A stretch of DNA of 46,141 bases from Hellea sp. (lineage in GTDB: Bacteria; Pseudomonadota; Alphaproteobacteria; Caulobacterales; Maricaulaceae). The position numbers and the translations under genes are program-made. The DNA lies in contig JABABK010000013.1 of the NCBI GenBank assembly GCA_014238285.1, forward strand, positions 1 to 46,141. The letters are read 5' to 3'. The notes beneath the pieces are model-generated. The model worked only from the letters and a program-made list of their open reading frames with translations. It had not been told where the DNA came from and did no database searches. Positions within the stretch are counted from its first letter, which is position 1. The number at the start of each line of letters is the position of its first letter. Shown here piece by piece: positions 9,041 through 31,556 of the stretch.

Positions 9041-10396
9041 TCAAGCCAAAGGCAGAGAAAATTCAAAGCTTATGCTTTTCTTGTCTTTGCCGATCACAGG
9101 AAACAAGGTTGTGCCTTGTAGCTCGGCAATTCGTTTGGCGATGGCGAGGCCGAGGCCGCTACCTGTTTCGACAGCATGGGGTCCGCGAACAAACCTTTCA
9201 AACATATGATCGAGCAGATATTCGGGCAGTCGTTCGCTGCTATTCGAAACTTTTACTAAGAGCGATTGATCTTGGGCGGCGGTCTCGATTTTAATATTGC
9301 CTTCGACGGGCGTGTATTTACAGGCGTTACTGATCAGGTTGCGTAGCAATGTGTCTGTTAAGCCCGGATAAGCCATGACGGCATTATTATCATCAAAATT
9401 GAGGGATAAATTGATAAACTTTCCTTGCCATTTTTCTTGATAATCTTCTGTAATTTCTGTGATCAACATGGCGGCATCAATGGGTGTTTTCTCGCCGGGC
9501 GTGTCATCCGGGTCAAGGCGCGCTAACGTCATGAGTTGGTCGACAGTGTGAGTTGCGCGGTTCACGCGGGTTAAAAGTTCACCCAACCAGCTTTTCATTT
9601 TTTTATCTTTGGTCAAGCGTTGCTGCAACTGAACTTCGGTTTTGATGGCGGATAGCGGGGTTAGCAGTTCGTGAGCAGCGTTGGCGGTGAAGTGACGTTC
9701 TTTGTCCAGTAGATTTGTATTACTCGTTTCTGCCTCGGCTTGTTTGTTCTTCAATAGGAGCAGTATGGTTTTAAGATTAGACAGTTCTTGCGGCGGGTTA
9801 AATACCTCCAGGCTATCACCAGAACTTTCAGCGGCCATGCGTAATTTGGTGATGGGACGTAATACTAATCCCGTCAGAAAGTATAAAAGTAACCCGCAGA
9901 GCAAGACGCCGGTCAGGAGAATTAAAAATTCACGCGTTTTCATGAATTCCCATAAGTTTGGTTTATAGGTGCTTGCCATAGTGACAATGATATGCGCTGT
10001 CGCGGTTTCCCGGCTGACGACGAGCCATGGATCACCATCAATATCGTCTTTATAGTCATAAAAATCAGGATCTTCAGGCAGGGGTGTTTCAAATTTCGGG
10101 AATATTGCCGATCGTCCTGTATATTTGGACTCCTTGCAGCGAATTTCATAAGCCAGTCCGGTGAAGTCAAAGAAATCTTCCGAAAAAGTACTAAAATCAG
10201 GACGCCGGTTCTTCGCGCAGCCCTTTCCGGCTTCCCAAAGTCCGGCAATGATGACGGACTGACCATCCATATGGGCAAATTCATAACTATCGATGTACTG
10301 ATCGGCGTCTTTTTTACTCATGTAATAAGCAGAGAAAAACCCGACCATGGCTAGGATTAACGCCAATAGAGTAAGTCTAAGTCTTAATGATCTCAT
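9041..10396 (-). CDS. Sensor histidine kinase (OmpR-partner class)
   Basis: An inner-membrane two-component sensor of 451 aa. TM1 covers about residues 7-27 and TM2 about 156-178, with a periplasmic sensor of about 125 aa rich in acidic residues (PEDPDFYDYKDDIDGD) that might bind cations. Then come HAMP-like linker, HisKA with phospho-acceptor His242 (AHELLTP), and HATPase_c with the N box NLISNACKYTP and G box GSGLGLAIAKR. The ATG overlaps the response-regulator stop by 4 nt, so the pair is coupled. The layout resembles QseC/PmrB sensors; the signal is unknown. Confidence 0.92.
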   Translation of the reverse strand: MRSLRLRLTLLALILAMVGFFSAYYMSKKDADQYIDSYEFAHMDGQSVIIAGLWEAGKGCAKNRRPDFSTFSEDFFDFTGLAYEIRCKESKYTGRSAIFPKFETPLPEDPDFYDYKDDIDGDPWLVVSRETATAHIIVTMASTYKPNLWEFMKTREFLILLTGVLLCGLLLYFLTGLVLRPITKLRMAAESSGDSLEVFNPPQELSNLKTILLLLKNKQAEAETSNTNLLDKERHFTANAAHELLTPLSAIKTEVQLQQRLTKDKKMKSWLGELLTRVNRATHTVDQLMTLARLDPDDTPGEKTPIDAAMLITEITEDYQEKWQGKFINLSLNFDDNNAVMAYPGLTDTLLRNLISNACKYTPVEGNIKIETAAQDQSLLVKVSNSSERLPEYLLDHMFERFVRGPHAVETGSGLGLAIAKRIAELQGTTLFPVIGKDKKSISFEFSLPLA

Positions 10397-14623: not shown

Positions 14624-15352
14624 TTATTCGCCGAAGCTGCCCATGATATTGAGCAAGAACTGGAACATATTGTAGAATGACAACAGGAGGCTGGTCGCGC
14701 CAAACAACGCCAATTTCTTGACCAGTGATGGATTACCAACCGCGCCATAATACATAGCTTTCATAGCTTGAGTTTCCCATGCCACCAAGACTGAAATGGC
14801 GACCAAAGCAACTGTGCTAAGAACCAAATCCATTGTTCCGCCAATTTGAAAAGCCGGAATGACTATTGAAACCATATATAAAGCGATAACCGCGAAGAAT
14901 ATACCTGCCGCATATTTCGCAATGCTCCAAAGGTTACGCTCTGTTGAATACCCAAATAGGCTAAGCGCCGCGAATAAAGCCACGGTCATAAAGAAGACTT
15001 TGGCGATTAGCATGCCTGGGTAAAATAGGACGGAGAGCGAGAAAAATGCGCCCAAAACACCCGCCATGGCAAAAAGGAAGACAAACATGGATGTTTCGCT
15101 CATGCTGTTTATATTTTTACCAACCTTAGCAAAGGCAAACATGATGCCGAAAAACACACCAATCATTACGATCGGATTAGCTAGAAACCTGATAGCTTCT
15201 GGATTGGCCATGAAATATTGAGATAGTAGGTAGGAAACACCCGCAGCGACGGCCATAGCCATTGCCATATAGCGGTATGTTCCAACCATGAAATTACGTA
15301 GACCGATGTCTGTTTCACCAGCACCTACGATTTGTGGAGAACGATCGTTCAT
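14624..15352 (-). CDS. Bax inhibitor-1/YccA-family membrane protein
   Basis: A 242-aa protein with seven hydrophobic segments, including YMAMAMAVAAGVSYLLSQYF, FLANPIVMIGVFFGIMFAFA and VALFAALSLFGYSTERNL (the motif linked to the family's LFG/FG signature). The C-terminus MFQFLLNIMGSFGE is characteristic of bacterial BI-1 proteins. The family comprises pH-sensitive calcium-leak channels or FtsH regulators. The start at 15352 has AAGGA 7 nt upstream; an in-frame TTG at 15367 is less likely. Confidence 0.88.
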   Translation of the reverse strand: MNDRSPQIVGAGETDIGLRNFMVGTYRYMAMAMAVAAGVSYLLSQYFMANPEAIRFLANPIVMIGVFFGIMFAFAKVGKNINSMSETSMFVFLFAMAGVLGAFFSLSVLFYPGMLIAKVFFMTVALFAALSLFGYSTERNLWSIAKYAAGIFFAVIALYMVSIVIPAFQIGGTMDLVLSTVALVAISVLVAWETQAMKAMYYGAVGNPSLVKKLALFGATSLLLSFYNMFQFLLNIMGSFGE

Positions 15353-22621: not shown

Positions 22622-24217
22622 TTAGCCAGCGTTTAAGTCGCTCCAAGCCAAATCATATTTTGCCAAATATTTTTTGAGCCGATCACTATCATTTGTTGTT
22701 TTGCGCTGGGTGCGTGAAATGGCGTAGAGCTTGCGCCCGGCGTCAGATAGATTATCGGACGCGCGGCAGACGGTAATCACATTTGAGAGGCCGGGTCTTT
22801 CAAAGGGATCAATAGCTTCAATTTGTGCTCGCGTTATGACGGATAGGAGCGACTCTTCTTCAGGCGTGCTGCTGATCAATCTCCATGACCGTTTTAGCCG
22901 TTCTATTTCTTTTTCCACGGCCGCAAGACCAATGCGCGCGCCATCAGCAAATGTGCAGAGCCGCGTGACCGAGGCTGTTAGGTCTCGGAAATTAGCATTC
23001 CATTTGGCTTCAGATGATAAGGCGTATTTTAGATAGGCCGTACGAGCTTCTTTATTGAATGTGACCTTGCGATTATGGCGTTCGCTAAATTTTATCAGCT
23101 CAAAATTTAAATTAGGTTCTATATCTTCACGGCGGTCTTTGAGCCCAGGCAATATATAGCTCCACATATGAATGCGGGCGAGCAGGTCTTCGCGAAATTT
23201 ACCGTCGGCGACTAATTGTGTGAGATCAGTGCTGGTGCCGGCGATCAGCTGAAAGTCACTACTGACCGCCGTATCTCCGCCAAGAGGGTAGAAACGGTGG
23301 TCTTCTAGCGCACCCAAAATCATGGCTTGCTCGTCGAGGCCTAGAGCTTCAACCTCATCCAGAAATAAGAGACCTTTATGGGCGGTACGTAAAAGGCCCG
23401 CTCGGTCTTTGGTCGCGCCGGCATAGGCGCCGCGTTTATGTCCGAACAAAGTCGACATGGCGCTTTCACCGCGAAGCGTCGCGCAGTTGACCTCGACAAA
23501 GTCTCCGTCGATTTGGTGGCGCTTGCGCTTTAAGTCATAAATACGCCGCGCGAGATTACCTTTACCGGCTCCCGTAGGCCCCATGAGCAGGACAGGGTTT
23601 TGAGTTCGAATGGCGACTTGTTCGATTTCGTCAATCATAACGTTGAAATTCACATTGCGCGTCGGAATTCCGGCCTTGAGAAAAGCCTGATCCGTTTCGC
23701 GCACCGATTTAAACCGATCCGCAACATTGTCATATTTGGAAAGGTCAAGATCAATGACCGAGACAAGGCCGGGTTCACCCTTGTTTTTATCCTTTGGGGG
23801 TGAGAGCTGTAAAATCTTGCCCGGTAGAAAACGCGCCTCGTTTAGGAGGAACATGCAAATTTGCGAAACATGTGTACCCGTTGTGATGTGAAGAAAGTAG
23901 TCTTCCTTGTCAGTGTCAAAACGATAGAGATCAACAAAATCAAATAATATTTCATAGACTTCTTCGAGATCCCATGGGTTATGAATATGCATCTCATTGA
24001 TGATGACGTCTGTGTTGGGAGAAATAAGGGCGATGTCTGTTGCCACTTGTTCGGCAATTGCGAAATATTTCGGATCGCATAACATTTCAAACCGATCGAT
24101 CTTGAAATCTTCCTGACGACATAGATCAACGCTGGGTCGCCAGCGCATCCAGCGCTCTGGCATGGTTCCGCTATCAAGGTTAGTTCCCAAAAATCCGAAA
24201 GCTACGTTTTGTTTCAT
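22622..24217 (-). CDS. rtcR: RNA-repair regulator RtcR (CARF + AAA+ + HTH)
   Basis: Activator of the rtc RNA-repair operon, 531 aa. The N-terminal CARF sensor (about 1-185) has FGFLGTNLD and HITTGTHVSQIC; family members respond to RNA-end ligands. The central AAA+ domain has Walker A GPTGAGKG (Lys219) and Walker B LLFLDE (283-288). The sigma54-contact loop, normally GAFTGA, is GAYAGA at 263-268, so the critical Thr is replaced by Ala. A C-terminal helix-turn-helix lies near 480-525. It is divergent from rsr across a 199-nt AT-rich region, the classical arrangement. Whether it still works with sigma54 is open. Confidence 0.93.
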   Translation of the reverse strand: MKQNVAFGFLGTNLDSGTMPERWMRWRPSVDLCRQEDFKIDRFEMLCDPKYFAIAEQVATDIALISPNTDVIINEMHIHNPWDLEEVYEILFDFVDLYRFDTDKEDYFLHITTGTHVSQICMFLLNEARFLPGKILQLSPPKDKNKGEPGLVSVIDLDLSKYDNVADRFKSVRETDQAFLKAGIPTRNVNFNVMIDEIEQVAIRTQNPVLLMGPTGAGKGNLARRIYDLKRKRHQIDGDFVEVNCATLRGESAMSTLFGHKRGAYAGATKDRAGLLRTAHKGLLFLDEVEALGLDEQAMILGALEDHRFYPLGGDTAVSSDFQLIAGTSTDLTQLVADGKFREDLLARIHMWSYILPGLKDRREDIEPNLNFELIKFSERHNRKVTFNKEARTAYLKYALSSEAKWNANFRDLTASVTRLCTFADGARIGLAAVEKEIERLKRSWRLISSTPEEESLLSVITRAQIEAIDPFERPGLSNVITVCRASDNLSDAGRKLYAISRTQRKTTNDSDRLKKYLAKYDLAWSDLNAG

Positions 24218-24416
24218 GTATTTATTTATATATAAAACGATAAAATAATATATAAAAAATAGTAATATTTCATAATTTTTAATCTTTATTCTGATGATTT
24301 TTAGAAAATTTCGTTATATTTCAATAATTTATCATTTTTCACCAAAAAACGTTTTTGCATAAGCGCCGAGATGTTCAGTTTCTATCTCGTTGATAAACAA
24401 CGAAGAGGATAAGAAA
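24218..24416 (+). promoter_or_regulatory. AT-rich rtcR-rsr intergenic control region
   Basis: This 199-nt divergent region is strikingly AT-rich. It contains a 12-bp palindrome TTTATATATAAA (24225-24236) and a related TAATATATAA about 20 nt further, possible RtcR sites. A TTTTTGCA resembling a -12 element lies at 24352-24359, but no GG stands at the required distance for a -24 element. The rsr ribosome site is AGAGGA at 24404-24409. Confidence 0.5.
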
Positions 24417-26009
24417 ATGGCAAACAAATCTGTGTTTGCGAGTGTACGAGGAAGGTTGCTCCCGAAGGCGGGCGTCGTAAATCGTGCTGGCGGAAAAGCC
24501 TATGATCTGGGTCCGCGTCATAAATTGGCGCAGCTCGCGATCACTGGATGTCTGAACGGTACGTATTACAGCTCGGCTGAGGAGCAGCTTTCCGATGTTT
24601 TGGAATTGACGCAAATCGTTGATCCTGGATTCGTCGCTAAGACCGCAATTTACGCCCGTGAAAAAGGCTTGATGAAAGATATGCCTGCTTTGCTTTTGGC
24701 CAGCTTGACTGTGCCAAATGCTAAAGGCGAGTACCGCCCGGAATTAATCGCGCCAGTTTTTAATCGCGTGATTACAAACGGCAAGATGCTGCGCAATTTT
24801 GTGCAGATCATGCGCTCTGGCGCGGTTGGTCGAAAGTCACTTGGAACAGCGCCTAAGCGCTTGATTCAAAATTGGCTTTTTAAGGCAAGTGATGACGCTT
24901 TGATCCGCGCCTCTGTCGGGAATGACCCGTCGCTTGGGGATGTGATCAAAATGGTTCACCCAAAGCCGAAGGACAAATCGCGTGAAGCTTTGTTTGGATA
25001 TCTGATCGGTCGTGCCTACGATTTCTCGAAATTGCCAAAAGCAGTTCGGGAGTTCGAACGGTACAAAAATCCACATCAGAAAGCCCAAGGGTTTCCTGAC
25101 GTGCCGTTCCAAATGCTGACATCACTTGATCTCGGCGCAAAAGAATGGAGAGCCATAGCGGCAAATGCTGGTTGGCATATGACACGGATGAATTTGAATA
25201 CCTTTGCACGGCATGGTGTGTTCGAAAAATCATCTGCGGTAAAACTGGTCGCTCGGCGCCTTGCGGATAAGAATGAAATCCGAAGAGCGCGTGTGTTCCC
25301 ATATCAGATCATGGCCGCCTATATGGCGACTCAAAAATCTGACTTGCCGCATGAGATCAAAGAGGCCTTACATGAGGCGCTCGAGATCGCGACTGAAAAC
25401 GTTCCGTCTTTTGACGGTAATGTTGTTGTCTGTCCTGATGTCTCTGGCTCTATGAGCATGAGCGTCTCAGGCTATCGTTACGGCTCCACCTCTGTGGTGC
25501 GCTGTATCGATGTGGCCGGATTGATGGCGTCGGTTGTTTTGCGTCAAAACCCGAAAGCGGCCGTTTTGCCGTTCGAAGTTTGTGTGGCTGATGTCAATTT
25601 GACAGCTCGCGACACAGTTTTGACCAATGCCGAAAAACTGTCGTCTATTGGCGGCGGCGGCACAAATTGTAGCGCTCCACTTGCGCATCTAAACCAGCGC
25701 AAAGCGTCGGTCGATTTGGTGATCATTGTCTCTGACAATGAGAGCTGGGCAGGCCTACAACGCGGACGCGGTACGGCTTTGATGCGTGAATGGGAAAAAC
25801 TGAAAGCCCGCAACCCGCAGGCCAAGCTGGTTTGTTTGGACATCGTGCCAAACACCACAGTCCAAGCGGTGAACCGGGACGATATTTTGAACATTGGCGG
25901 ATTCTCCGACCAAGTATTTAAAATCATCGATCAGTTTGCAAAAGGAAATTTTGGCAATGATCACTTCGTCGAAGCGATTGAGGCCATTGAATTAAGGAGT
26001 ATAAATTGA
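24417..26009 (+). CDS. rsr: Bacterial Ro60 ortholog (TROVE + vWA), Rsr
   Basis: A ring-shaped RNA-binding protein, 530 aa, that binds Y RNA on its outer surface and RNA ends in its central hole, and that hands RNA to exonucleases such as PNPase. The TROVE HEAT-repeat domain covers about 1-335 (AQLAITGCLNGTYYSS, DPGFVAKTAIYAREKGLMKDMPA split). The vWA domain starts near 336 with a complete MIDAS: Asp341-x-Ser-x-Ser (DVSGSMS), the Thr in GGGGTNCS, and Asp in IIVSDNES. The start at 24417 has AGAGGA 8 nt upstream; an in-frame TTG at 24390 is rejected. The Y RNA genes begin 34 nt after its stop. Confidence 0.95.
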   Translation: MANKSVFASVRGRLLPKAGVVNRAGGKAYDLGPRHKLAQLAITGCLNGTYYSSAEEQLSDVLELTQIVDPGFVAKTAIYAREKGLMKDMPALLLASLTVPNAKGEYRPELIAPVFNRVITNGKMLRNFVQIMRSGAVGRKSLGTAPKRLIQNWLFKASDDALIRASVGNDPSLGDVIKMVHPKPKDKSREALFGYLIGRAYDFSKLPKAVREFERYKNPHQKAQGFPDVPFQMLTSLDLGAKEWRAIAANAGWHMTRMNLNTFARHGVFEKSSAVKLVARRLADKNEIRRARVFPYQIMAAYMATQKSDLPHEIKEALHEALEIATENVPSFDGNVVVCPDVSGSMSMSVSGYRYGSTSVVRCIDVAGLMASVVLRQNPKAAVLPFEVCVADVNLTARDTVLTNAEKLSSIGGGGTNCSAPLAHLNQRKASVDLVIIVSDNESWAGLQRGRGTALMREWEKLKARNPQAKLVCLDIVPNTTVQAVNRDDILNIGGFSDQVFKIIDQFAKGNFGNDHFVEAIEAIELRSIN

Positions 26010-26021
26010 GGTTTATTCTAA

Positions 26022-26040
26022 AAGGCTAATTAAGGCTAAT
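26022..26040 (+). repeat. Tandem AAGGCTAAT repeat before the Y RNA block
   Basis: AAGGCTAAT occurs at 26022-26030 and 26032-26040, with a related AAGGCTTAAT at 26121-26130 after the first Y RNA. The role is unknown; it may be a processing or promoter element for the RNA block. Confidence 0.4.
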
Positions 26041-26043
26041 AGA

Positions 26044-26118
26044 GTGGCCGCGAATGCCGGAAGATATATAGGACTACATCTGCTAATGACGTCCCTTCCG
26101 AAGACTTGTCGCGGCCAC
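26044..26118 (+). ncRNA. Y RNA 1 (minimal, no tRNA-like module)
   Basis: A 75-nt hairpin. The outer stem is a perfect 10 bp (GTGGCCGCGA, 26044-26053, with TCGCGGCCAC, 26109-26118). Then comes the AUGCC bulge opposite GAAGACTTG, an inner stem GGAAG/CTTCC, an ATATATA bulge, a GGAC/GTCC stem and a 16-nt loop starting TACAT. The AUGCC bulge and the inner-stem-AC/TACAT junction recur in three neighbouring RNAs, which identifies the Ro-binding module. It lacks any T-arm or D-arm sequence. Its position directly after rsr is where Y RNA genes normally lie. Confidence 0.85.
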
Positions 26119-26140
26119 TTAAGGCTTAATCTGGTTATTC

Positions 26141-26242
26141 ATGACGAATGCCGAAAAGACTACATTGGTAGGGCCGAAAGGCCGTTCGGGTTCAAGTCCC
26201 GATCTTCGAAAGAAGAGACGTCTTTTCAATGATTGTCGTCAT
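26141..26242 (+). ncRNA. Y RNA 2 (YrlA-type with compact tRNA-like module)
   Basis: A 102-nt RNA. The outer stem is ATGACGA (26141-26147) with TCGTCAT (26236-26242). The AUGCC bulge faces AATGATTG. The inner stem is GAAAAGAC (26153-26160) with GTCTTTTC (26220-26227), followed by UACAU. The effector has a D-loop-like TTGGTAG, a GGCC-GAAA-GGCC hairpin, a perfect T-arm (CGGG-TTCAAGT-CCCG, 26187-26201) and a short acceptor-like stem CTTC-GAAA-GAAG. This matches the known idea of YrlA RNAs as tRNA mimics. It ends 3 nt before a tRNA-Met gene. Confidence 0.88.
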
Positions 26243-26245
26243 AAT

Positions 26246-26322
26246 GCACGTATAGCTCAGTTGGTTAGAGCTTTCCGCTCATAACGGAAATGTCCGAGGT
26301 TCAATTCCTTGTGCGTGCACCA
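26246..26322 (+). tRNA. tRNA with anticodon CAU (elongator Met or Ile2)
   Basis: A complete cloverleaf of 77 nt: acceptor GCACGTA/TGCGTGC, D-arm GCTC..GAGC, anticodon loop CTCATAA (CAT at 26280-26282), T-arm CGAGG-TTCAATT-CCTTG, A73 and encoded CCA. The paired G1-C72 argues against initiator tRNA. CAU could be elongator Met or lysidine-modified Ile2; I cannot decide. It sits between two Y RNAs with spacers of only 3 and 6 nt. Confidence 0.93.
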
Positions 26323-26328
26323 GTTTTT

Positions 26329-26463
26329 GTTGGCGAATGCCTGTGAAACTACATCTTTCAATGACGGTGTCGTGGGTTCGAATCCCACTCGTTTCTATCA
26401 TGTGGGTGGAAGCGGTAGCTCAGTTGGTAGAGCACGGATGTTTCACAAATTCTTGTCGCCAAC
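26329..26463 (+). ncRNA. Y RNA 3 (YrlA-type with nearly complete circularly permuted tRNA)
   Basis: A 135-nt RNA. The outer stem is GTTGGCGA/TCGCCAAC (26329-26336, 26456-26463). The AUGCC bulge faces AATTCTTG. The inner stem is TGTGAAAC/GTTTCACA (26342-26349, 26440-26447), followed by UACAU. The tRNA-like part is in permuted order: T-arm GTGGG-TTCGAAT-CCCAC, 3' acceptor strand TCGTTTC, a 13-nt loop, 5' acceptor strand GAAGCGG (seven pairs with the 3' strand), TA, then a perfect D-arm GCTC..GAGC. The Ro-binding stem sits where the anticodon arm would be. Confidence 0.9.
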
Positions 26464-26474
26464 ACATAATCAAG

Positions 26475-26598
26475 CTGGTGAATGCCGAGGAAACTACATT
26501 ACTGCGGAAGTCGCGAGGTTCGAATCCTTGCTGGTCGAAAGACTGTATCTCAGGTGGATAAGAGACCCGTATTTGTTCCCTCAACACTTTGTCACCAG
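26475..26598 (+). ncRNA. Y RNA 4 (YrlA-type, permuted tRNA-like module capped by GAAA)
   Basis: A 124-nt RNA. The outer stem is CTGGTGA/TCACCAG. The AUGCC bulge faces AACACTTTG. The inner stem is GAGGAAAC/GTTCCCTC (26487-26494, 26575-26582) with one A-C mismatch, then UACAU. The tRNA-like part is a T-arm CGAGG-TTCGAAT-CCTTG, a short acceptor stem TGGTC-GAAA-GACTG, TA and a D-arm TCTC..GAGA. It has the same permuted plan as Y RNA 3 but with the acceptor loop reduced to a GNRA tetraloop. tRNA-Gln begins 6 nt later. Confidence 0.88.
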
Positions 26599-26604
26599 TG
26601 CCAT

Positions 26605-26679
26605 TGATCCTTCGTCTAATGGGTAGGACGCCGGATTTTGAGTCCGGAAATTCAGGTTCGAGACCTGAAGGATCAGCCA
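26605..26679 (+). tRNA. tRNA-Gln (UUG)
   Basis: A 75-nt cloverleaf: perfect acceptor TGATCCT/AGGATCA with the U1-A72 pair usual for Gln, anticodon stem CCGGA/TCCGG, loop TTTTGAG (anticodon TTG), T-arm TCAGG-TTCGAGA-CCTGA, G73 and encoded CCA. All tRNAs that follow are on the same strand. Confidence 0.95.
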
Positions 26680-26686
26680 GAAATAG

Positions 26687-26763
26687 TCGCGTGGGTCCCG
26701 GTCGGTACGGGAACGGTCCTGTTAAGGCCGTTGTTATTGGTTCGAGTCCAATTACGCGAGCCA
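26687..26763 (+). tRNA. tRNA-Asn (GUU), lacking the usual U8
   Basis: A 77-nt cloverleaf: acceptor TCGCGTG/TACGCGA, D-arm with stem TCCC/GGGA, anticodon loop CTGTTAA (GTT), T-arm ATTGG-TTCGAGT-CCAAT, G73 and CCA. Positions 8-9 are GG, so the near-universal U8, which pairs with A14, is absent, and the D-arm is unusually G/C-rich. It may be non-standard in folding or use. Confidence 0.88.
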
Positions 26764-26766
26764 TAT

Positions 26767-26842
26767 GGACCCGTAGCTCAGTGGTTAGAGCTGTCGCCTT
26801 TTAAGCGGCCGGTCGTCGGTTCGACTCCGACCGGGTCCTCCA
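26767..26842 (+). tRNA. tRNA-Lys (UUU) with U73
   Basis: A 76-nt cloverleaf: perfect acceptor GGACCCG/CGGGTCC, D-arm GCTC..GAGC, anticodon loop CTTTTAA (TTT), T-arm GTCGG-TTCGACT-CCGAC and encoded CCA. The discriminator base is U; lysine tRNAs normally have A or G there. It lies 3 nt after tRNA-Asn. Lys-UUU is the target of the PrrC anticodon nuclease in other bacteria. Confidence 0.92.
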
Positions 26843-26849
26843 TAGCTAA

Positions 26850-26924
26850 GCTCCCTTAGTTTAGCGGATAGAACACCCCGCTTTCTACGGGGCGACACGG
26901 GTTCGAGTCCCGTAGGGAGTACCA
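26850..26924 (+). tRNA. tRNA-Glu (UUC) with U37
   Basis: A 75-nt cloverleaf: acceptor GCTCCCT/AGGGAGT with a terminal G-U, anticodon stem CCCCG/CGGGG, loop CTTTCTA (TTC), T-arm ACGGG-TTCGAGT-CCCGT, A73 and CCA. Position 37 is U rather than the usual purine, which may affect decoding. One nucleotide separates it from tRNA-Arg. Confidence 0.9.
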
Positions 26925-26925
26925 A

Positions 26926-27001
26926 GCACTGGAAGCTCAATTGGATGAGCAGCGGCCTTCGAAGCCGTCGGTTATAGGTTCGAGTCCTATCCAGTGCGCC
27001 A
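26926..27001 (+). tRNA. tRNA-Arg (UCG), lacking U8
   Basis: A 76-nt cloverleaf: perfect acceptor GCACTGG/CCAGTGC, D-arm GCTC..GAGC, anticodon loop CTTCGAA (TCG), T-arm ATAGG-TTCGAGT-CCTAT, G73 and CCA. Positions 8-9 are AA, so U8 is missing. Arg isoacceptors are targets of colicin D. The next tRNA starts 1 nt after the CCA. Confidence 0.9.
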
Positions 27002-27002
27002 A

Positions 27003-27087
27003 AGGCGAGTATGCAAGTGGCAAAGCAAGCGGATTGTAAATCCGAGTCCGAAAGGATGCGCTGGTTCGAGTCCAGCCTCGCCTACCA
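27003..27087 (+). tRNA. tRNA-Tyr (GUA), class II
   Basis: An 85-nt class II tRNA: perfect acceptor AGGCGAG/CTCGCCT, D-arm TGC..GCA, anticodon loop TTGTAAA (GTA), a long variable arm closed by TCC-GAAA-GGA, T-arm GCTGG-TTCGAGT-CCAGC, A73 and CCA. The outermost anticodon-stem pair is G-A. The normal long arm here shows that class II tRNAs can persist in this array, unlike the two Leu tRNAs that follow. Confidence 0.93.
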
Positions 27088-27091
27088 ACCT

Positions 27092-27168
27092 GGCCGACTA
27101 GCCCAACTGGTAGAGGCGCCTGATTTAGAATCAGGATGTTCTAGGTTCGACTCCTAGGTCGGCTACCA
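27092..27168 (+). tRNA. tRNA with Leu anticodon UAG but a short (class I) variable loop
   Basis: A 77-nt cloverleaf: acceptor GGCCGAC/GTCGGCT, D-arm GCCC..GAGGC, anticodon stem CCTGA/TCAGG, loop TTTAGAA (TAG), T-arm CTAGG-TTCGACT-CCTAG, A73 and CCA. The variable loop is five nt (ATGTT). Bacterial tRNA-Leu is normally class II with a long variable arm, so this is an atypical Leu tRNA. It could be charged anyway, be a decoy, or have a changed identity. Confidence 0.88.
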
Positions 27169-27182
27169 AACCATGCTCCGCG

Positions 27183-27259
27183 GTCCCCGTGGGCAAAATG
27201 GTAAAGTCACCGGACTTAAAATCCGGGTTTTGCGAGTTCGACTCTCGCCGGGGACACCA
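27183..27259 (+). tRNA. tRNA with Leu anticodon UAA but a short (class I) variable loop
   Basis: A 77-nt cloverleaf: perfect acceptor GTCCCCG/CGGGGAC, D-arm GGC..GTC, anticodon stem CCGGA/TCCGG, loop CTTAAAA (TAA), T-arm GCGAG-TTCGACT-CTCGC, A73 and CCA. The variable loop is GTTTT, again without the long arm expected for bacterial Leu tRNA. With its neighbour this makes two independent Leu isoacceptors with the same defect. Confidence 0.88.
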
Positions 27260-27263
27260 AAGG

Positions 27264-27339
27264 TCTGGTTTAGCTCAACCGGTTAGAGCGCGGGATTGTG
27301 GCTCCCGAGGTGAAGGTTCAAGTCCTTCAACCAGGACCA
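27264..27339 (+). tRNA. tRNA-His (GUG)
   Basis: A 76-nt cloverleaf: acceptor TCTGGTT/AACCAGG, D-arm GCTC..GAGC, anticodon stem CGGGA/TCCCG, loop TTGTGGC (GTG), T-arm GAAGG-TTCAAGT-CCTTC, A73 and CCA. A73 in place of the usual C73 fits the unusual histidine identity known in part of the alphaproteobacteria. A G does precede position 1. Its CCA forms the left arm of a CCAACC-TAAC-GGTTGG hairpin in the spacer. Confidence 0.92.
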
Positions 27340-27352
27340 ACCTAACGGTTGG
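27337..27352 (+). other. Spacer hairpin after tRNA-His
   Basis: CCAACC (27337-27342) and GGTTGG (27347-27352) form a 6-bp stem with a TAAC loop. It overlaps the encoded CCA of tRNA-His and lies in the longest spacer of the array (28 nt). It might guide 3' processing. Confidence 0.45.
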
Positions 27353-27367
27353 AAGAAAGAATATTAA

Positions 27368-27442
27368 TGGCCCCTAGCTCAGAGGCAGAGCGCTCGGCTG
27401 ATAACCGAGAGGCCGGGATTTCAAAATTCTCGGGGCCAACCA
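27368..27442 (+). tRNA. tRNA-Ile (GAU), slightly degenerate T-arm
   Basis: A 75-nt cloverleaf: perfect acceptor TGGCCCC/GGGGCCA, D-arm GCTC..GAGC, anticodon stem CTCGG/CCGAG, loop CTGATAA (GAT), A73 and CCA. The T-stem GGGAT/TTCTC has a T-T mismatch next to the loop and one G-T, and the T-loop reads TTCAAAA. It is otherwise intact. Confidence 0.88.
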
Positions 27443-27450
27443 ACACATAA

Positions 27451-27528
27451 CGGGGTGTAACTCAGTCCGGTCAGAGTTCCCGCCTTGGACGCGGGAAGCC
27501 GCAGGTTCGAATCCTGCTGCCCCGACCA
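27451..27528 (+). tRNA. tRNA-Pro (UGG)
   Basis: A 78-nt cloverleaf: acceptor CGGGGTG/TGCCCCG with C1-G72, as is usual in tRNA-Pro, D-arm ACTC..GAGT, anticodon stem CCCGC/GCGGG, loop CTTGGAC (TGG), T-arm GCAGG-TTCGAAT-CCTGC, A73 and CCA. It is the last gene of the RNA block; a T-run and a small hairpin follow. Confidence 0.93.
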
Positions 27529-27537
27529 TTTTTAAGG

Positions 27538-27552
27538 CCCTCATAATGAGGG
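27538..27552 (+). other. Small hairpin between the tRNA array and kptA
   Basis: CCCTCAT-A-ATGAGGG can form a hairpin with about 6 pairs. No T-run follows, so it is more likely a processing or stability element than a terminator. Transcription can therefore continue into kptA. Confidence 0.4.
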
Positions 27553-27601
27553 TGGGGTAAGTCCATCCAAACTAGGAATAAACCTCGAAAGAGGATAGAG
27601 A

Positions 27602-28159
27602 ATGAAAATGAAAAACGAAATTAAACATCGCAGCAAGCTATTAAGCCTGATTTTGCGGCATAAACCAGAACTTGCCGGGATTACCCTTGGTGAAGGCGGC
27701 TGGGTATCGGTTGCGAAGCTGCTGTCCGGTATTGCCAATATGGGTAAGGCTATGACCAAGGATCAGCTTATCGAAGTGGTAGAGACCAATGATAAGAAGA
27801 GGTTCACTTTGTCCGAAGACCGGCTCAGCATACGTGCTGCCCAGGGTCATACGGTGAATGTAGCGTTAGGGCTTTTGCCTGTCACGCCGCCGAAGCAGCT
27901 TTATCACGGCACCGCCACGCGGTTCTTAGATGCGATTCAAAGCGAAGGTCTAAAGTCGATGAAGCGAGATCATGTTCACTTATCGGCAGACATTGAAACC
28001 GCTAGTCGGGTTGGCAAGCGCCACGGCAAGCTCGTAATTTTACAAATAGATGCAGGCAAATTGCACGCATCAGGACAAGAATTTTATCAGGCCGATAACG
28101 GCGTATGGCTCACAGGGCCAATCGCGCCAAAATGGTTTGAAGTAATAAAGGAGGCGTAA
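27602..28159 (+). CDS. kptA: RNA 2'-phosphotransferase (Tpt1/KptA)
   Basis: Transfers an RNA 2'-phosphate to NAD+, giving a clean 2'-OH and ADP-ribose cyclic phosphate. The 185-aa length is typical. The catalytic Arg-His pair is Arg19-His20 (LILRHKP), followed by Arg78 (SIRAAQGH), YHGT at 101-104 and an Arg near 136 (TASRVGKRHG) completing the R-H-R-R set; the C-terminal YQADNGVWLTGPI is also conserved. GAGG lies 8 nt before the ATG. It precedes rtcB directly. In a repair unit it could remove 2'-phosphates left after cyclic-phosphate opening or eukaryotic-type ligation. Confidence 0.95.
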   Translation: MKMKNEIKHRSKLLSLILRHKPELAGITLGEGGWVSVAKLLSGIANMGKAMTKDQLIEVVETNDKKRFTLSEDRLSIRAAQGHTVNVALGLLPVTPPKQLYHGTATRFLDAIQSEGLKSMKRDHVHLSADIETASRVGKRHGKLVILQIDAGKLHASGQEFYQADNGVWLTGPIAPKWFEVIKEA

Positions 28160-29416
28160 ATGGAAGACGTCACACATATGAAAGAACACGAAACAGGACA
28201 CGGCTATAATGTTATGGCCGTCGAAGGCGGCGCGCCTGTGAAAATGTGGACACGCGGCGTGCCTGTTGAGGACGGCGCGCGTAAACAGCTTTTGAAAGCT
28301 GCGCAAATGCCGTTTATCTTTAAACATGTGGCGGTCATGCCGGATGTTCATATCGGTATAGGCGCCACTGTCGGCTCTGTTATTCCAACGAAAAACGCTA
28401 TTATCCCGGCGGCTGTCGGGGTTGATATTGGCTGCGGGATGATGGCTTGCAGGACGTCTTTGACGGCCAATGACTTGCCGGATAGCCTTGGGCATTTTCG
28501 GGCCGCCATTGAGCGGGCCGTGCCGCATGGGCGTTCGTCTGGGCGCAGAGGTCGTGATAAAGGCTCTTGGCATAACGCGCCAAAAACCTCCGAGGCAGCT
28601 TGGACGCGATTGGTAGATCGTTTCGACGTGATTACGGCCAAGCATAAAGTTATCCGGAACTCCAATAACCTCAATCATTTGGGGACGCTTGGAACGGGGA
28701 ATCACTTTATCGAGATTTGTCTCGATTTGGAGGACCGTGTCTGGTTCATGCTGCACTCTGGATCACGGGGTGTCGGGAACCGTATTGGCCGCTACTTTAT
28801 TGAGCTGGCCAAAAAAGACATGGAAAAATGGTTCATCAATATTCCGGATAAAGACTTGGCCTATTTCCCGGAAGGGACAGACCATTTTGACGATTATGTT
28901 CAGGCGGTTGAATGGGCGCAGGACTTTGCGTTTTCTAACCGGGCCGTGATGATGCAAAACGTCATTTCAGCGATCCGTCACATCGTGCCAAAGCCTTTCG
29001 AGGCTGAGGTCGAGGCCGTGAATTGTCACCATAACTATGTCGCCCGGGAAAACCATTTCGGGGAAGATATTTTGGTGACACGTAAAGGCGCGGTTCGGGC
29101 CCGTAAGGGCGATATGGGGATTATCCCGGGTTCCATGGGAACGCGCTCTTACATTGTTCGCGGGCTTGGGAATGTGGATAGTTTCTGTTCCTGCTCACAC
29201 GGAGCAGGGCGGGTTATGTCACGGACCGAGGCCAAGAAGCGTATCTCTATGGAAGAACATCTCGAAGCCGTCAAAGACGTCGAGTGCCGTAAAGATGCGT
29301 CGGTTATCGACGAAACACCAGCGGCCTATAAGTCGATCGATCAAGTGATGGAAGCACAGAAAGATTTGGTTGAGGTGGTGCATACTTTGCGGCAGGTTGT
29401 CTGTGTTAAGGGCTGA
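28160..29416 (+). CDS. rtcB: RNA-splicing ligase RtcB
   Basis: A GTP- and Mn2+-dependent ligase that joins 3'-phosphate or 2',3'-cyclic phosphate ends to 5'-OH ends, as formed by many tRNA-cleaving toxins. It has 418 aa. Metal and active-site motifs are intact: PDVHIG (61-66), GVDIGCG with Asp89 and Cys92, GTGNHFIE with His182, HSGSRGVGN, NCHHNY with His290/291, and the guanylylated His347 in CSHGAGR. The start follows the kptA stop immediately, with AAGGAGG inside the kptA end, so the genes are coupled. It is the E. coli-type branch; no archease gene is visible. Confidence 0.97.
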   Translation: MEDVTHMKEHETGHGYNVMAVEGGAPVKMWTRGVPVEDGARKQLLKAAQMPFIFKHVAVMPDVHIGIGATVGSVIPTKNAIIPAAVGVDIGCGMMACRTSLTANDLPDSLGHFRAAIERAVPHGRSSGRRGRDKGSWHNAPKTSEAAWTRLVDRFDVITAKHKVIRNSNNLNHLGTLGTGNHFIEICLDLEDRVWFMLHSGSRGVGNRIGRYFIELAKKDMEKWFINIPDKDLAYFPEGTDHFDDYVQAVEWAQDFAFSNRAVMMQNVISAIRHIVPKPFEAEVEAVNCHHNYVARENHFGEDILVTRKGAVRARKGDMGIIPGSMGTRSYIVRGLGNVDSFCSCSHGAGRVMSRTEAKKRISMEEHLEAVKDVECRKDASVIDETPAAYKSIDQVMEAQKDLVEVVHTLRQVVCVKG

Positions 29417-29457
29417 GGTATTGCGCTTATAGCGCAATACCGAACGGGATGCGTTCG
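29417..29457 (+). promoter_or_regulatory. Two adjacent hairpins between rtcB and the 133-aa gene
   Basis: The first is a perfect 10-bp stem GGTATTGCGC/GCGCAATACC with a 5-nt loop (29417-29441). The second is CGAACG/CGTTCG with a GGATG loop (29441-29457) and touches the GGAGGAGG ribosome site of the next gene. There is no T-run. They may set mRNA cleavage or limit translation of the downstream genes. Confidence 0.6.
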
Positions 29458-29474
29458 GAGGAGGTTTCAGACAA

Positions 29475-29876
29475 ATGCCCAAACAAATTTATTCGTTAAA
29501 GCAATTTCTTGACGAAAACCCCCGTTATCTTCGTGCGCCCAATTTGCGGACAAATCATGGCAATTATGGAAGTGAAAAATGGTGGAATGCCATAGACACG
29601 AGGAAAATAAGAAAAACAGTGAAAACAGGTCAGATCGTAAGCTTGCATCGCGAAGGGATGGATGCCTCAATGCCCAATACTGCTTTGGTACAAACCCAAA
29701 ACGGCGACTTCTGGAAACTCTTTCTTGACGTAAATCGACGGAGATATTTTAAGAAGTATAGAGTTGAGGCCAGAGTAAAAGCGATTTATGCGACGCTTTA
29801 TTTAAAACCAAATAAAATACCTTTTTTGGCCAAACCTCATATCGATGAGGTTCTCGAAATCTGGATCTTAGATTAA
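29475..29876 (+). CDS. Unknown 133-aa basic protein in the RNA-repair operon
   Basis: I do not recognise a family. The protein is Lys/Arg-rich with a predicted mixed fold and no signal peptide or TM segment. The N-terminus (YSLKQFLDENPRYLRAPNLR) is followed by a tract KIRKTVKTGQIVSLHREGMD and a C-terminal KPHIDEVLEIWILD. A GGAGGAGG site lies about 9 nt before the ATG, so translation is well supported. It lies between rtcB and a DUF4291 gene on the same strand with short gaps, so a role in RNA repair or RNA handling is a fair inference from context only. Confidence 0.75.
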   Translation: MPKQIYSLKQFLDENPRYLRAPNLRTNHGNYGSEKWWNAIDTRKIRKTVKTGQIVSLHREGMDASMPNTALVQTQNGDFWKLFLDVNRRRYFKKYRVEARVKAIYATLYLKPNKIPFLAKPHIDEVLEIWILD

Positions 29877-29904
29877 ATCGAAGAACGACTAAAAGAACGA
29901 GAAA

Positions 29905-30486
29905 ATGAGAAACGAAAAAGAAATATACGCTGTCTATAATGACGAGACCATACGGGTCTACCAGGCCTTTAATCCTCTGATAGCTGGCCCCGCCGTAAAG
30001 GCGCAGACTTTTGTGTCGCCTTTTAAGATGGAACGCATGACTTGGATTAAACCGTCCTTTCTCTGGATGATGTATCGGGCGGGCTATGGTTATAAAGATC
30101 ATGGCCAGAAGCGCATATTAGCGATTGATATCACGCATGAAGGCTTTCGTTGGGCATTAGAACATAGCTCTGGCAGTCATATTCCAAAGGATATGCCCAA
30201 AGAAGATTGGCAGGCCGTAAAAGCCAATAAACCTGTCAGAATTCAGTGGGATCCTGAACGGGATATCCATCATAACGCTTTGGATTATCGGTCCATTCAA
30301 ATTGGTTTGACTCGTGAAGCGGTACACAAATATGTCAAAGATTGGATAGTATCTATCGAAGATATCACGCCTATTGCCCACGAAATGTCTGATCTGATTG
30401 AAGCTGGAGAAAATGAAAAAGCAATAGCGCTATGTCCATTAGAAAAGCCTTATACTATGATTGAAAATCATGGGGACTATGGTTGA
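29905..30486 (+). CDS. DUF4291 family protein
   Basis: A 193-aa cytosolic protein. The N-terminus EIYAVYNDETIRVYQAFNPLIA and the core FKMERMTWIKPSFLWMMYRAGYG, then ILAIDITHEGFRWAL and WDPERDIHHNALDYRSIQIGL are the DUF4291 signature. The conserved MTWIKPSFLWM and D-x-x-H-N regions suggest an enzyme. No activity is established to my knowledge. Its place between rtcB and rtcA, with its stop only 15 nt before the rtcA ATG, links it to RNA repair by context. Confidence 0.85.
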   Translation: MRNEKEIYAVYNDETIRVYQAFNPLIAGPAVKAQTFVSPFKMERMTWIKPSFLWMMYRAGYGYKDHGQKRILAIDITHEGFRWALEHSSGSHIPKDMPKEDWQAVKANKPVRIQWDPERDIHHNALDYRSIQIGLTREAVHKYVKDWIVSIEDITPIAHEMSDLIEAGENEKAIALCPLEKPYTMIENHGDYG

Positions 30487-30500
30487 GAAAAGAATACAAA

Positions 30501-31556
30501 ATGGCAAAACGCGAAATAATTATAGATGGCTCTGAGGGCGAAGGCGGGGGACAAGTTCTTCGCACGTCCCTGTCCTTGTCAGCCATCACCGGAAAACCTG
30601 TACGCATTGAAAATGTGCGCGGTAAGCGGAAGAAACCTGGCCTGTTTCGCCAGCATCTAACTGCCTTTAAAGCAGCGGCGGAGATTTGCGGCGCGCGCGT
30701 TGAAGGGGCTGAGCTTAAATCTATGGAGATCGCATTTCATCCAAGCGAGATTAAAGGCGGCGATTATACTTTCTCTATTGGTTCTGCGGGCGCGACCAAT
30801 TTGGTGGCGCAAACAATTTTGCCAATCCTGTCATTTGCGGATAAACTATCGAGCGTGACTATTACGGGCGGGACTCACAATGATTTCGCCCCGACATTTG
30901 ATTTTCTCGACCAAGCCTTCTTGCCGCAATTTCGCAAAATGGGAGGCCGCGTGAGTGCGCAGCTTGGCAGCTACGGCTTTAATCCGGCCGGCGGCGGGTC
31001 TGTGACGTTAAAGGTCAAACCAGTGGAAACACCTGCTCGGCTAGAATTGATCAATCGAGGCGCGCTTAAATACATGCGAGCAGAAGTGCTGATTGCTAAT
31101 ATCAAACGAGGCGTGGCAGAACGTGAGCTTAAAACACTTATGCACGCCCTTAACATCGCGCCGGAAAATGGCGAGATTATACAGATCGAAAGCCCTGGGC
31201 CCGGCAATGTGGTAACTGTGTTTTTGGAACATGAACATGTTACGGAAGTTTTCACAGGCCTTGGCAGGCACGGCATTCGCGCTGAAGCTGTCGCAAAACA
31301 AGTGGCCAGCAATGTGCAGGCTTATATTTCAGCGGGCGATGCCAATAGCACGAACAAACCAGCGGTAGGCGAACATTTGGCGGACCAGCTTTTGCTGCCA
31401 ATGGCTCTGCTCGGCGGAGGCGTGTTTACGACCACAGATATCTCGCAGCACACCCGGACCAATATGGATATAATCCGCGCGTTTTTGCCCGTTGAGTTTA
31501 AATTAAGTCAAAACGGGCGAAAATGCTGGACGGTTGAGGTGTTAAAGCAGGATTGA
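30501..31556 (+). CDS. rtcA: RNA 3'-terminal phosphate cyclase
   Basis: Converts RNA 3'-phosphate to 2',3'-cyclic phosphate with ATP and can adenylylate RNA ends, supplying RtcB substrates. It has 351 aa from the ATG at 30501, which places EIIIDGSEGEGGGQVLRTSL at the usual N-terminal position; an upstream in-frame TTG at 30483 is less likely. Other motifs: GGTHNDFAPTFDF (123-135), NPAGGG (161-166) and the adenylylated His317 (SQHTRTN). It is the last gene of the island. I see no clear terminator before the phasin gene at 31714. Confidence 0.96.
   Translation: MAKREIIIDGSEGEGGGQVLRTSLSLSAITGKPVRIENVRGKRKKPGLFRQHLTAFKAAAEICGARVEGAELKSMEIAFHPSEIKGGDYTFSIGSAGATNLVAQTILPILSFADKLSSVTITGGTHNDFAPTFDFLDQAFLPQFRKMGGRVSAQLGSYGFNPAGGGSVTLKVKPVETPARLELINRGALKYMRAEVLIANIKRGVAERELKTLMHALNIAPENGEIIQIESPGPGNVVTVFLEHEHVTEVFTGLGRHGIRAEAVAKQVASNVQAYISAGDANSTNKPAVGEHLADQLLLPMALLGGGVFTTTDISQHTRTNMDIIRAFLPVEFKLSQNGRKCWTVEVLKQD

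Follow-up and report, generated by a model that had tools for sequence, protein, structure and literature searches.

An RNA-repair gene cluster was analysed in a contig of Hellea sp. (JABABK010000013.1; 46,141 nucleotides, referred to below as the window), numbered contig 44 in a draft assembly of 3.7 Mb. On the plus strand, the cluster consists of rsr, a group of Y RNAs together with a tRNA-Met gene, eleven further tRNA genes, kptA, rtcB, a small open reading frame (ORF) named orf133, a DUF4291 gene and rtcA, which ends at position 31556. The features of an rsr-Y RNA-rtcBA RNA-repair operon are present: Y RNA genes adjoin rsr, and rtcB and rtcA are co-directional. As in the RtcR/sigma-54 regulated type, a divergent rtcR encodes CARF, AAA+ and HTH parts. 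A preliminary description of the window had listed RtcR, Ro60, four Y RNAs, twelve tRNAs, KptA, RtcB, DUF4291 and RtcA, and ARAGORN, Rfam and profile scores confirm this inventory. Its view of rsr through rtcA as one co-directional RNA-repair unit is borne out by the gene, RNA and family calls. The series does not face rtcR as had been stated; rsr and rtcR are divergent and lie head to head. The features are as follows, with A37 and similar terms giving the letter at that tRNA position and E the expect value.

22622..24217, minus strand: rtcR, CARF-AAA+-HTH regulator of 531 residues (NF038308, 731.6 bits with a cut-off of 650 bits; PF06956; PDLC01993, 1.8e-239)
24218..24416, no strand: divergent intergenic region, AT-rich, without a -24 (TGGC) element in a motif search
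24417..26009, plus strand: rsr, Ro60 family protein of 530 residues (PF25045; PF05731; 2nvo, 9.9e-31)
26043..26119, plus strand: Y RNA 1, short, YrlB-like (signature at 26052; Rfam YrlB 20.5 bits, E 0.58, weak)
26141..26245, plus strand: Y RNA 2, YrlA-like (41.8 bits, E 2e-7, under the cut-off; signature at 26146)
26246..26322, plus strand: tRNA-Met(CAU), Met or Ile2 undecided (ARAGORN, Rfam)
26330..26465, plus strand: Y RNA 3, YrlA (76.2 bits, cut-off 69)
26475..26601, plus strand: Y RNA 4, YrlA-like (44.5 bits, E 3e-8, under the cut-off; signature at 26480)
26605..26679, plus strand: tRNA-Gln(UUG), A37 (ARAGORN, Rfam)
26687..26763, plus strand: tRNA-Asn(GUU), G8 (ARAGORN; 41.8 bits)
26767..26842, plus strand: tRNA-Lys(UUU), U73 (ARAGORN, Rfam)
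26850..26924, plus strand: tRNA-Glu(UUC), U37 (ARAGORN, Rfam)
26926..27001, plus strand: tRNA-Arg(UCG) (ARAGORN, Rfam)
27003..27087, plus strand: tRNA-Tyr(GUA) (ARAGORN, Rfam)
27092..27168, plus strand: tRNA-Leu(UAG), 77 nucleotides, without a long variable arm, A37 (ARAGORN, Rfam)
27183..27259, plus strand: tRNA-Leu(UAA), 77 nucleotides, without a long variable arm (ARAGORN, Rfam)
27264..27339, plus strand: tRNA-His(GUG) (ARAGORN, Rfam)
27368..27442, plus strand: tRNA-Ile(GAU) (ARAGORN, Rfam)
27451..27528, plus strand: tRNA-Pro(UGG), 78 nucleotides, A37, common to all 12 tRNA-bearing loci (ARAGORN, Rfam)
27602..28159, plus strand: kptA, RNA 2'-phosphotransferase (PF01885, 4.2e-48)
28160..29416, plus strand: rtcB, RNA ligase (PF01139, 3e-132)
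29475..29876, plus strand: orf133, 133 residues, no family, weak likeness to RhsI2 (7rt7_D, E 1.3e-4)
29905..30486, plus strand: DUF4291 protein (PF14124, 3.1e-70)
30501..31556, plus strand: rtcA, RNA 3'-terminal phosphate cyclase (PF01137, 4.5e-77; TIGR03399 above its cut-off)

ARAGORN places all twelve tRNA genes on the plus strand between 26246 and 27528. Eleven reach the Rfam cut-off in a scan of the window, and the twelfth, tRNA-Asn, scored 41.8 bits in a whole-genome search. The array tRNAs encode CCA and have normal anticodon loops of seven nucleotides. Since a separate chromosomal tRNA exists for 8 of the 12 anticodons, the array exceeds the housekeeping set; no separate chromosomal tRNA was seen for Lys, Tyr, Ile(GAU) or Arg(UCG) in the draft genome, with scoring that covered 150 of 200 candidates and with two Rfam matches lacking an ARAGORN call. 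The eight array tRNAs are 55–72% identical to their own chromosomal cognates of the same anticodon, and the window array is 71–95% identical to its array counterparts in the related loci L054–L057 (loci are denoted by L and genomes by G).

The linkage of tRNA genes to RtcR is real and recurrent. It was counted by mapping seven window proteins and ARAGORN tRNAs onto fetched RtcR loci. Of 61 RtcR loci (a total that leaves out three second-sample loci already counted), 12 have tRNA genes between rtcR and rtcB; all 12 are alphaproteobacterial, and one is from Hellea balneolensis (L055). The window holds twelve such genes, L054 and L056 seven each, L057 five, L055 two and L145 three (two degenerate, one without CCA), with one each in L069, L146 and L127. 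All 42 cluster-internal tRNAs are on the operon strand, tRNA-Pro(UGG) is present in each of the 12 tRNA-bearing loci, and the order Gln-Arg-Leu-His-Asn-Pro-Tyr is common to L054 and L056, with part of it in L057. The second sample, from the family of G731, had a close RtcR in 20 of 199 genomes and a tRNA-Pro between rtcR and rtcB in 4 of the 20 loci, which cover only 1.5 kb on each side of rtcR, so that tRNAs further out would be missed. On a tree of 44 RtcR loci made by a quick method and with several weak forks, the stretch from rtcR to rtcB contains tRNAs of the CCA-bearing type in 9 loci, and the trait requires at least three changes. The preliminary description would have been refuted had the linkage been absent from all relatives, and this was not the case. 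Within the titles and abstract openings listed from the open-access literature, most subscription papers being outside it, neither tRNA arrays in RtcR operons nor an RtcR without sigma-54 is described.

Four loci were left out of the tRNA-bearing count. In L147 (4364–5532), from outside the class, tRNA genes (Asn, His, Gly and Ile-like) lie past rtcA beside ORFs that look like an SPFH protein and a nucleotidyltransferase. The tRNA-like genes of L112, L114 and L149 are mostly without CCA and have odd anticodon loops. Among the counted loci, L145 carries two degenerate tRNA genes at 9943–10093, one with a shortened anticodon loop, that are missing in its sister L146; the tRNA-Pro is kept.

The array tRNAs are under selection for their fold, as judged by compensatory changes, and two identity letters are retained. 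For tRNA-Pro, all 231 of 231 stem cells are paired over 11 distinct sequences, and 10 of 21 pairs have changed on both sides. Such double changes per 21 pairs number 5 for Asn, 5 for Gln, 7 for His, 7 for Tyr and 3 for Arg. At positions 73 and 1, 16 of 18 places match the chromosomal cognate, against a mean of 8.8 by permutation (P 0.0018); since the array sequences share ancestry, P values overstate their independence. In this comparison Lys, Tyr and Ile were omitted as the draft holds no cognate, Arg(UCG) was set against Arg(ACG), and tRNA-Met was set against the elongator.

The regulator and its promoter have lost the features of sigma-54 control. The sigma-54 contact motif of RtcR reads GAYAGA, not GAFTGA, in the window and in the four nearest relatives (L054–L057), and no YTGGCRY (-24) element occurs within the 200 bases between rtcR and the operon in the window. 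All 33 loci with an intact motif (G[AS][FY]T[GS]A) carry YTGGCRY between rtcR and the operon, whereas 10 of the 11 loci with an altered motif are without it and the remaining one, L061, has one that is unusually placed (Fisher 4e-9, 44 loci; both patterns were defined after viewing the loci and the test ignores kinship). The altered motifs include GAFHGA in L144, GAMTGA and GAITGA in L142 and L143, and more broken forms in L061–L063. As the altered RtcRs form two groups on the tree, two changes are indicated. A search of 18 genomes found rpoN in 16, including the window's own; therefore, the rewiring there is not explained by loss of sigma-54 itself. Such a loss may be the explanation in G252 (L061), and in G1133 (L056) provided that this metagenome bin is complete. 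Rewiring does not go hand in hand with the tRNAs, since tRNA-bearing L069, L145 and L146, from another family, and L127 keep the sigma-54 features. The NtrC protein of R. capsulatus is reportedly a precedent for a sigma-70 partner. Classical RtcR control, as the preliminary description had assumed, is therefore not supported, and as both sigma-54 features are missing, the cluster was not filed under the RtcR/sigma-54 regulated type. Counts of terminators and sigma-70 promoters were not above shuffle expectation and leave the transcript units undecided.

The Y RNA calls rest on a shared signature, GAATGCC-N(4-18)-ACTACAT, which has exactly four matches in the 46 kb window, all at Y RNAs, and none in 100 shuffles. 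By Rfam alone, one of the four is above the cut-off and the first is weak. Between rsr and rtcB of L054–L057, L069 and L145, some Y RNAs resemble permuted class II (Leu-type) tRNA mimics. Viewed by eye, these contain pieces like TTGGTAGACGC and GTGGCGG and accompany the usual class I mimic.

With respect to the proteins, Rsr matches vWA_Ro60 (1.4e-20) and TROVE (24.3 bits, cut-off 23), and the Rsr structure 2nvo (9.9e-31) is its closest solved relative; it falls far under the strict NCBIfam Rsr model (107.8 bits versus a cut-off of 900). KptA, RtcB, DUF4291 and RtcA all exceed their Pfam cut-offs, and rtcB starts at the base directly after the kptA stop. The preliminary description had held that the tRNA array, KptA and two poorly known proteins go beyond the classical cluster. 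The tRNA linkage does recur; kptA is linked to RtcR at only 3 of 44 loci (the window, L061 and L115), and the two poorly known proteins are linked to it only here. Neither DUF4291 nor orf133 turned up in any examined cluster of a relative; their standing as conserved cluster parts is unsupported. DUF4291 is present in 2 of 142 class genomes, the window's own included; phage records and viral contigs yielded none. In L054 and L057, different small ORFs of no family lie in the rtcB-rtcA gap.

For orf133, a comparison with solved structures up to E 1 yielded a single relative, the immunity protein RhsI2 (7rt7_D), and the likeness is weak (E 1.3e-4). No match was found in Pfam, NCBIfam, PADLOC or PHROGs, and viral contigs, plasmids and phages gave no relative. 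RhsP2, the toxin countered by RhsI2, modifies structured RNAs by ADP-ribosylation. Should the likeness be genuine, protection from an RNA-modifying toxin would be encoded in the slot between rtcB and rtcA. Single-sequence structure models of orf133 and DUF4291 were unusable (predicted local distance difference test scores of 34.6 and 31.4, respectively).

Close relatives of rsr are distributed sporadically. A close rsr (>50% identity) is present in 7 of 385 genomes in a class sample and close relatives of rsr in 9 of 398 genomes in an order sample, the window's own included in each, while rsr was found in 0 of 9 genomes of the window's own genus. Besides Hellea balneolensis, the named relatives are three uncultured Caulobacterales. 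Cluster proteins are 70–88% identical in the nearest four loci. Nine proteins flanking the cluster in the window had no match in ten related loci of 13–22 kb, seven of them tRNA-bearing, and in a wider test of nine tRNA-bearing loci the window's flanking ORFs matched none of the other eight. These unlike flanks, together with the gap of rsr in the window's genus, make it likely that the cluster moved between genomes or was rearranged. Some genes that flank the cluster in L056 recur beside those of L054, L055 and L057, several of them on the other side; the common neighbours lie at 14657–16927 of L056, 6525–8118 of L054 and 4348–4977 of L055. A firm claim of a mobile cassette was softened, given that some loci have flank genes in common and that the flanks are short. 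An origin of the array from phages was also tried and rejected: the 20 best of 1580 phage records match only at a general tRNA level (16–23% query coverage, 71–76% identity). In L120, L129/L224, L146, L225 and L226, rtcR is found within about 250 bases of a chromosomal tRNA-Arg(CCG), tRNA-Cys or tRNA-Ser gene. Genes for these three tRNAs are common insertion sites of islands.

The reading preferred here, which has replacement in common with the preliminary description, is of an RNA-repair cluster, probably transferred from genome to genome, whose products mend damaged tRNAs, clear them away and replace them; its probability is put just short of even. One damage signal would release repair enzymes and fresh tRNAs together. 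RtcB and RtcA would rejoin broken tRNAs, KptA would remove 2'-phosphates that block repair, and Rsr with the Y RNAs would handle RNA that cannot be salvaged. The array would supply fresh tRNAs whose altered bodies or anticodon loops may escape the nuclease or the need for 1-methylguanosine at position 37 (m1G37). The roles given to KptA and Rsr follow the known biochemistry of their families. We infer that the operon would be induced by tRNA damage as one transcript, and that its tRNAs would be charged, resist the nuclease and enter translation as replacements, with the cluster moving laterally. In the portions of PMC7790460 drawn upon, Salmonella RtcR binds 5' tRNA halves with a cyclic phosphate, which arise from cuts in the anticodon loop, and switches on rsr-yrlBA-rtcBA. 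Spare tRNAs of phages compensate for tRNA-cleaving defences of the host, according to parts of PMC11555353 and PMC10264068. A more elaborate and more tentative version is that the array tRNAs are damage-inducible spares in the RNA-repair operon of some Alphaproteobacteria and are counterparts of the phage tRNAs that oppose anticodon nucleases, with the set built on a distinct, mostly A37 tRNA-Pro line and growing towards a full C-codon set, and with an RtcR rewired off sigma-54 in the window's lineage, a change that would have arisen at least twice in the RtcR family.

The codon choice of the array may be considered in terms of the seven-gene core of L054 and L056, which covers all five codon families that begin with C (Leu, Pro, His, Gln and Arg, all G36) together with Asn and Tyr. 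A random draw of 7 from 23 families completes a first- or second-letter box (at least 5 families) in 0.14% of trials, versus 8% for a draw of 12, as many as in the window set; the pattern was noticed post hoc, and L054 and L056 are related. It is no more than a lead towards a nuclease that favors G36 tRNAs.

Several observations weigh against the reading of repair and replacement. At the level of loci, 49 of the 61 RtcR loci have no such tRNA, none occurs in the three other same-family RtcR loci (L142, L143 and L144), and the canonical sigma-54 route is missing in the window. The array is an incomplete set, with no Ala, Gly, Val, Thr, Ser, Phe, Asp, Cys or Trp. At the level of the tRNAs, A37 is found in 9 of 11 distinct array tRNA-Pro versus G37 in 31 of 31 chromosomal ones (Fisher 1.2e-7), and in 3 of 3 array tRNA-Leu(UAG) versus G37 in 33 of 33 chromosomal tRNA-Leu(NAG), against a chromosomal set of 119 distinct sequences that was gathered largely with G37 queries. 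Phage loci, some other-class loci with tRNA-like genes and duplicates of fetched loci were dropped from this set, as were tRNAs without CCA, under 73 nucleotides or without a three-letter anticodon. The array tRNA-Leu(UAG) is 77 nucleotides in 3 of 3 cases and has no long variable arm, versus 85 nucleotides in 24 of 24 chromosomal counterparts, and its three sequences contain no double-change pair. Further oddities are G8 in 5 of 5 array tRNA-Asn, U73 in tRNA-Lys and the absence of G19 from 7 of 11 tRNA-Pro, as judged by eye. A37 also yields AA at positions 37–38 in tRNA-Leu(UAG) and several tRNA-Pro, and many of the Salmonella cuts described in part of PMC7790460 fall between two adenines.

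A37 was also considered as a mark exclusive to the cluster, and this was rejected. A control search with an A37 query gave matches in 41 of 279 genomes, of which 30 loci were fetched and 29 were readable. Three rtc-linked tRNA-Pro had A37, and the 26 unlinked ones comprised 25 with G37 and one with A37 (L240, genome G437). This lone A37 tRNA-Pro (L266, 9960–10037) lies apart from rtc genes among ordinary ORFs, and G437 also has a cluster-borne one. A firm claim that A37 evades a nuclease was dropped as unproven, because Salmonella cuts mostly between two adenines and A37 adds AA steps to some array loops; that tRNA-Pro keeps G37 in phage stretches L212, L213 and L110 weighs against it as well.

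With such atypical features, the array tRNAs may, judging from their sequences, act as decoys or sensors rather than as replacements. As decoys, the array tRNAs and the tRNA-mimicking Y RNAs would absorb a nuclease or a modifying toxin, for which a tRNA fold and loop are needed and translation is not. Y RNAs with tRNA-like pieces do adjoin the tRNAs, several features are unfriendly to translation, and at loop positions 32, 33, 37 and 38 the chromosomal letters are retained in Asn, Lys, Leu(UAA) and Met though the bodies diverge. To these may be added the weak likeness of orf133 to an immunity protein whose cognate toxin modifies RNA. Hughes et al., in a section of PMC7790460, propose that YrlA is a competitive inhibitor of a nuclease. 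The encoded CCA and the mostly kept letters 73 and 1 would be superfluous for a decoy of an anticodon nuclease, and this function is considered unlikely. As sensors or amplifiers, sacrificial array tRNAs would feed their 5' halves to RtcR and keep the operon on while the nuclease is active. The AA at 37–38 would suit this role, as does the nature of the RtcR ligands, 5' halves with a cyclic phosphate, of which a tRNA-Leu(UAG) fragment served in Salmonella (PMC7790460, in part). However, the Salmonella ligand comes from chromosomal tRNAs and a broad choice of anticodons would be needless, leaving the sensor role more doubtful than that of a decoy.

Two further explanations were weighed. If phage-type or island tRNA arrays had landed in the cluster as unused passengers, the loss of the degenerate L145 genes from L146, the arrays of phages with Ro60-like genes and the unlike surroundings of the cluster would all be accommodated. 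The compensatory changes with 231 of 231 pairs, the gene order common to L054, L056 and partly L057, and the uniform strand of 42 tRNAs argue otherwise, and passengers are regarded as improbable. The tRNAs could also be punctuation, marking RNase P and RNase Z cuts that free Y RNA ends from a long transcript. This is suggested by tRNA-Met, which starts directly after Y RNA 2 and ends 7 nucleotides before Y RNA 3, and by tRNA-Gln, which starts 3 nucleotides past the end of Y RNA 4. Yet eleven consecutive tRNAs have no intervening Y RNA; the interval from rsr to rtcB in L058, L062–L065 and L142–L144 contains 2–6 Y RNA starts yet no tRNA (a single ARAGORN call in L064 lies inside a Y RNA); and L127, L221 and L227 have a tRNA between rtcR and rtcB and no rsr there. 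Punctuation is given the lowest probability of all. Replacement is the best reading among several possible functions.

There is no settled view of what bacterial RtcB operons repair or why many retain Ro60 and Y RNAs. A lineage that has added selected tRNA genes points to tRNA as the damaged currency and allows a direct test of repair versus replacement; it suggests that some bacteria answer tRNA damage by repair plus replacement of tRNAs. The rewired RtcR provides a natural experiment on how a sigma-54 activator can come to work without sigma-54. The deposited strain Hellea balneolensis, whose version of the cluster has two tRNAs (tRNA-Asn and tRNA-Pro) alongside rsr, Y RNAs, rtcB and rtcA, would make both repair/replacement and rewiring testable.

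Among known systems, Anabaena PCC 7120 offers a regulatory parallel. There, a tRNA array (the trn operon) and rtcB share one stress regulator in the TrcR regulon, and the array is silent until translational stress (PMC10272220, in part). It differs from the window in that the 26-tRNA array is on a megaplasmid, rtcB lies elsewhere and TrcR is a repressor; according to PMC10272220, Anabaena has no RtcR homologue. Streptomyces phage Beuffert (L213) and Myxococcus phage Mx1 (L131) have a Ro60-like gene among tRNA genes, as in the window, and the same tRNA-rich stretch of Beuffert encodes an RNA ligase and a polynucleotide kinase. The tRNA-Pro(CGG), tRNA-Leu(GAG) and tRNA-Leu(UAG) of Mx1 likewise have A37; three other phage stretches have G37 in 5 of 5 tRNA-Pro and 3 of 4 tRNA-Leu(NAG). 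In contrast to the window, these are phage genomes with larger arrays, and no RtcR was found in the stretches read. Ro60-like genes also lie near or among tRNA genes in viral contigs L104, L109 and L110, while in 6 of 9 rsr-bearing viral contigs (L102, L103, L105–L108) ARAGORN found no tRNA in the stretch examined. The SPFH/band-7 RNA repair systems of Burroughs and Aravind (2016) are said to include an RtcB-type operon with tRNA-like RNAs; the window has no SPFH protein among its family matches, and its tRNAs have CCA and normal seven-nucleotide loops. The closest counterpart is the rsr-yrlBA-rtcBA operon of Salmonella Typhimurium, which, from the portions of PMC7790460 drawn upon, has the same unit of rsr, Y RNAs, rtcB and rtcA with a divergent rtcR. 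Relative to that operon, the window adds twelve tRNAs, kptA, orf133 and DUF4291 (the terms "tRNA genes", "KptA" and "DUF4291" are absent from the main text of PMC7790460), and has an RtcR without GAFTGA and a promoter without the -24 element. Judged by gene content, the cluster is a new variant among the rsr-Y RNA-rtcBA operons.

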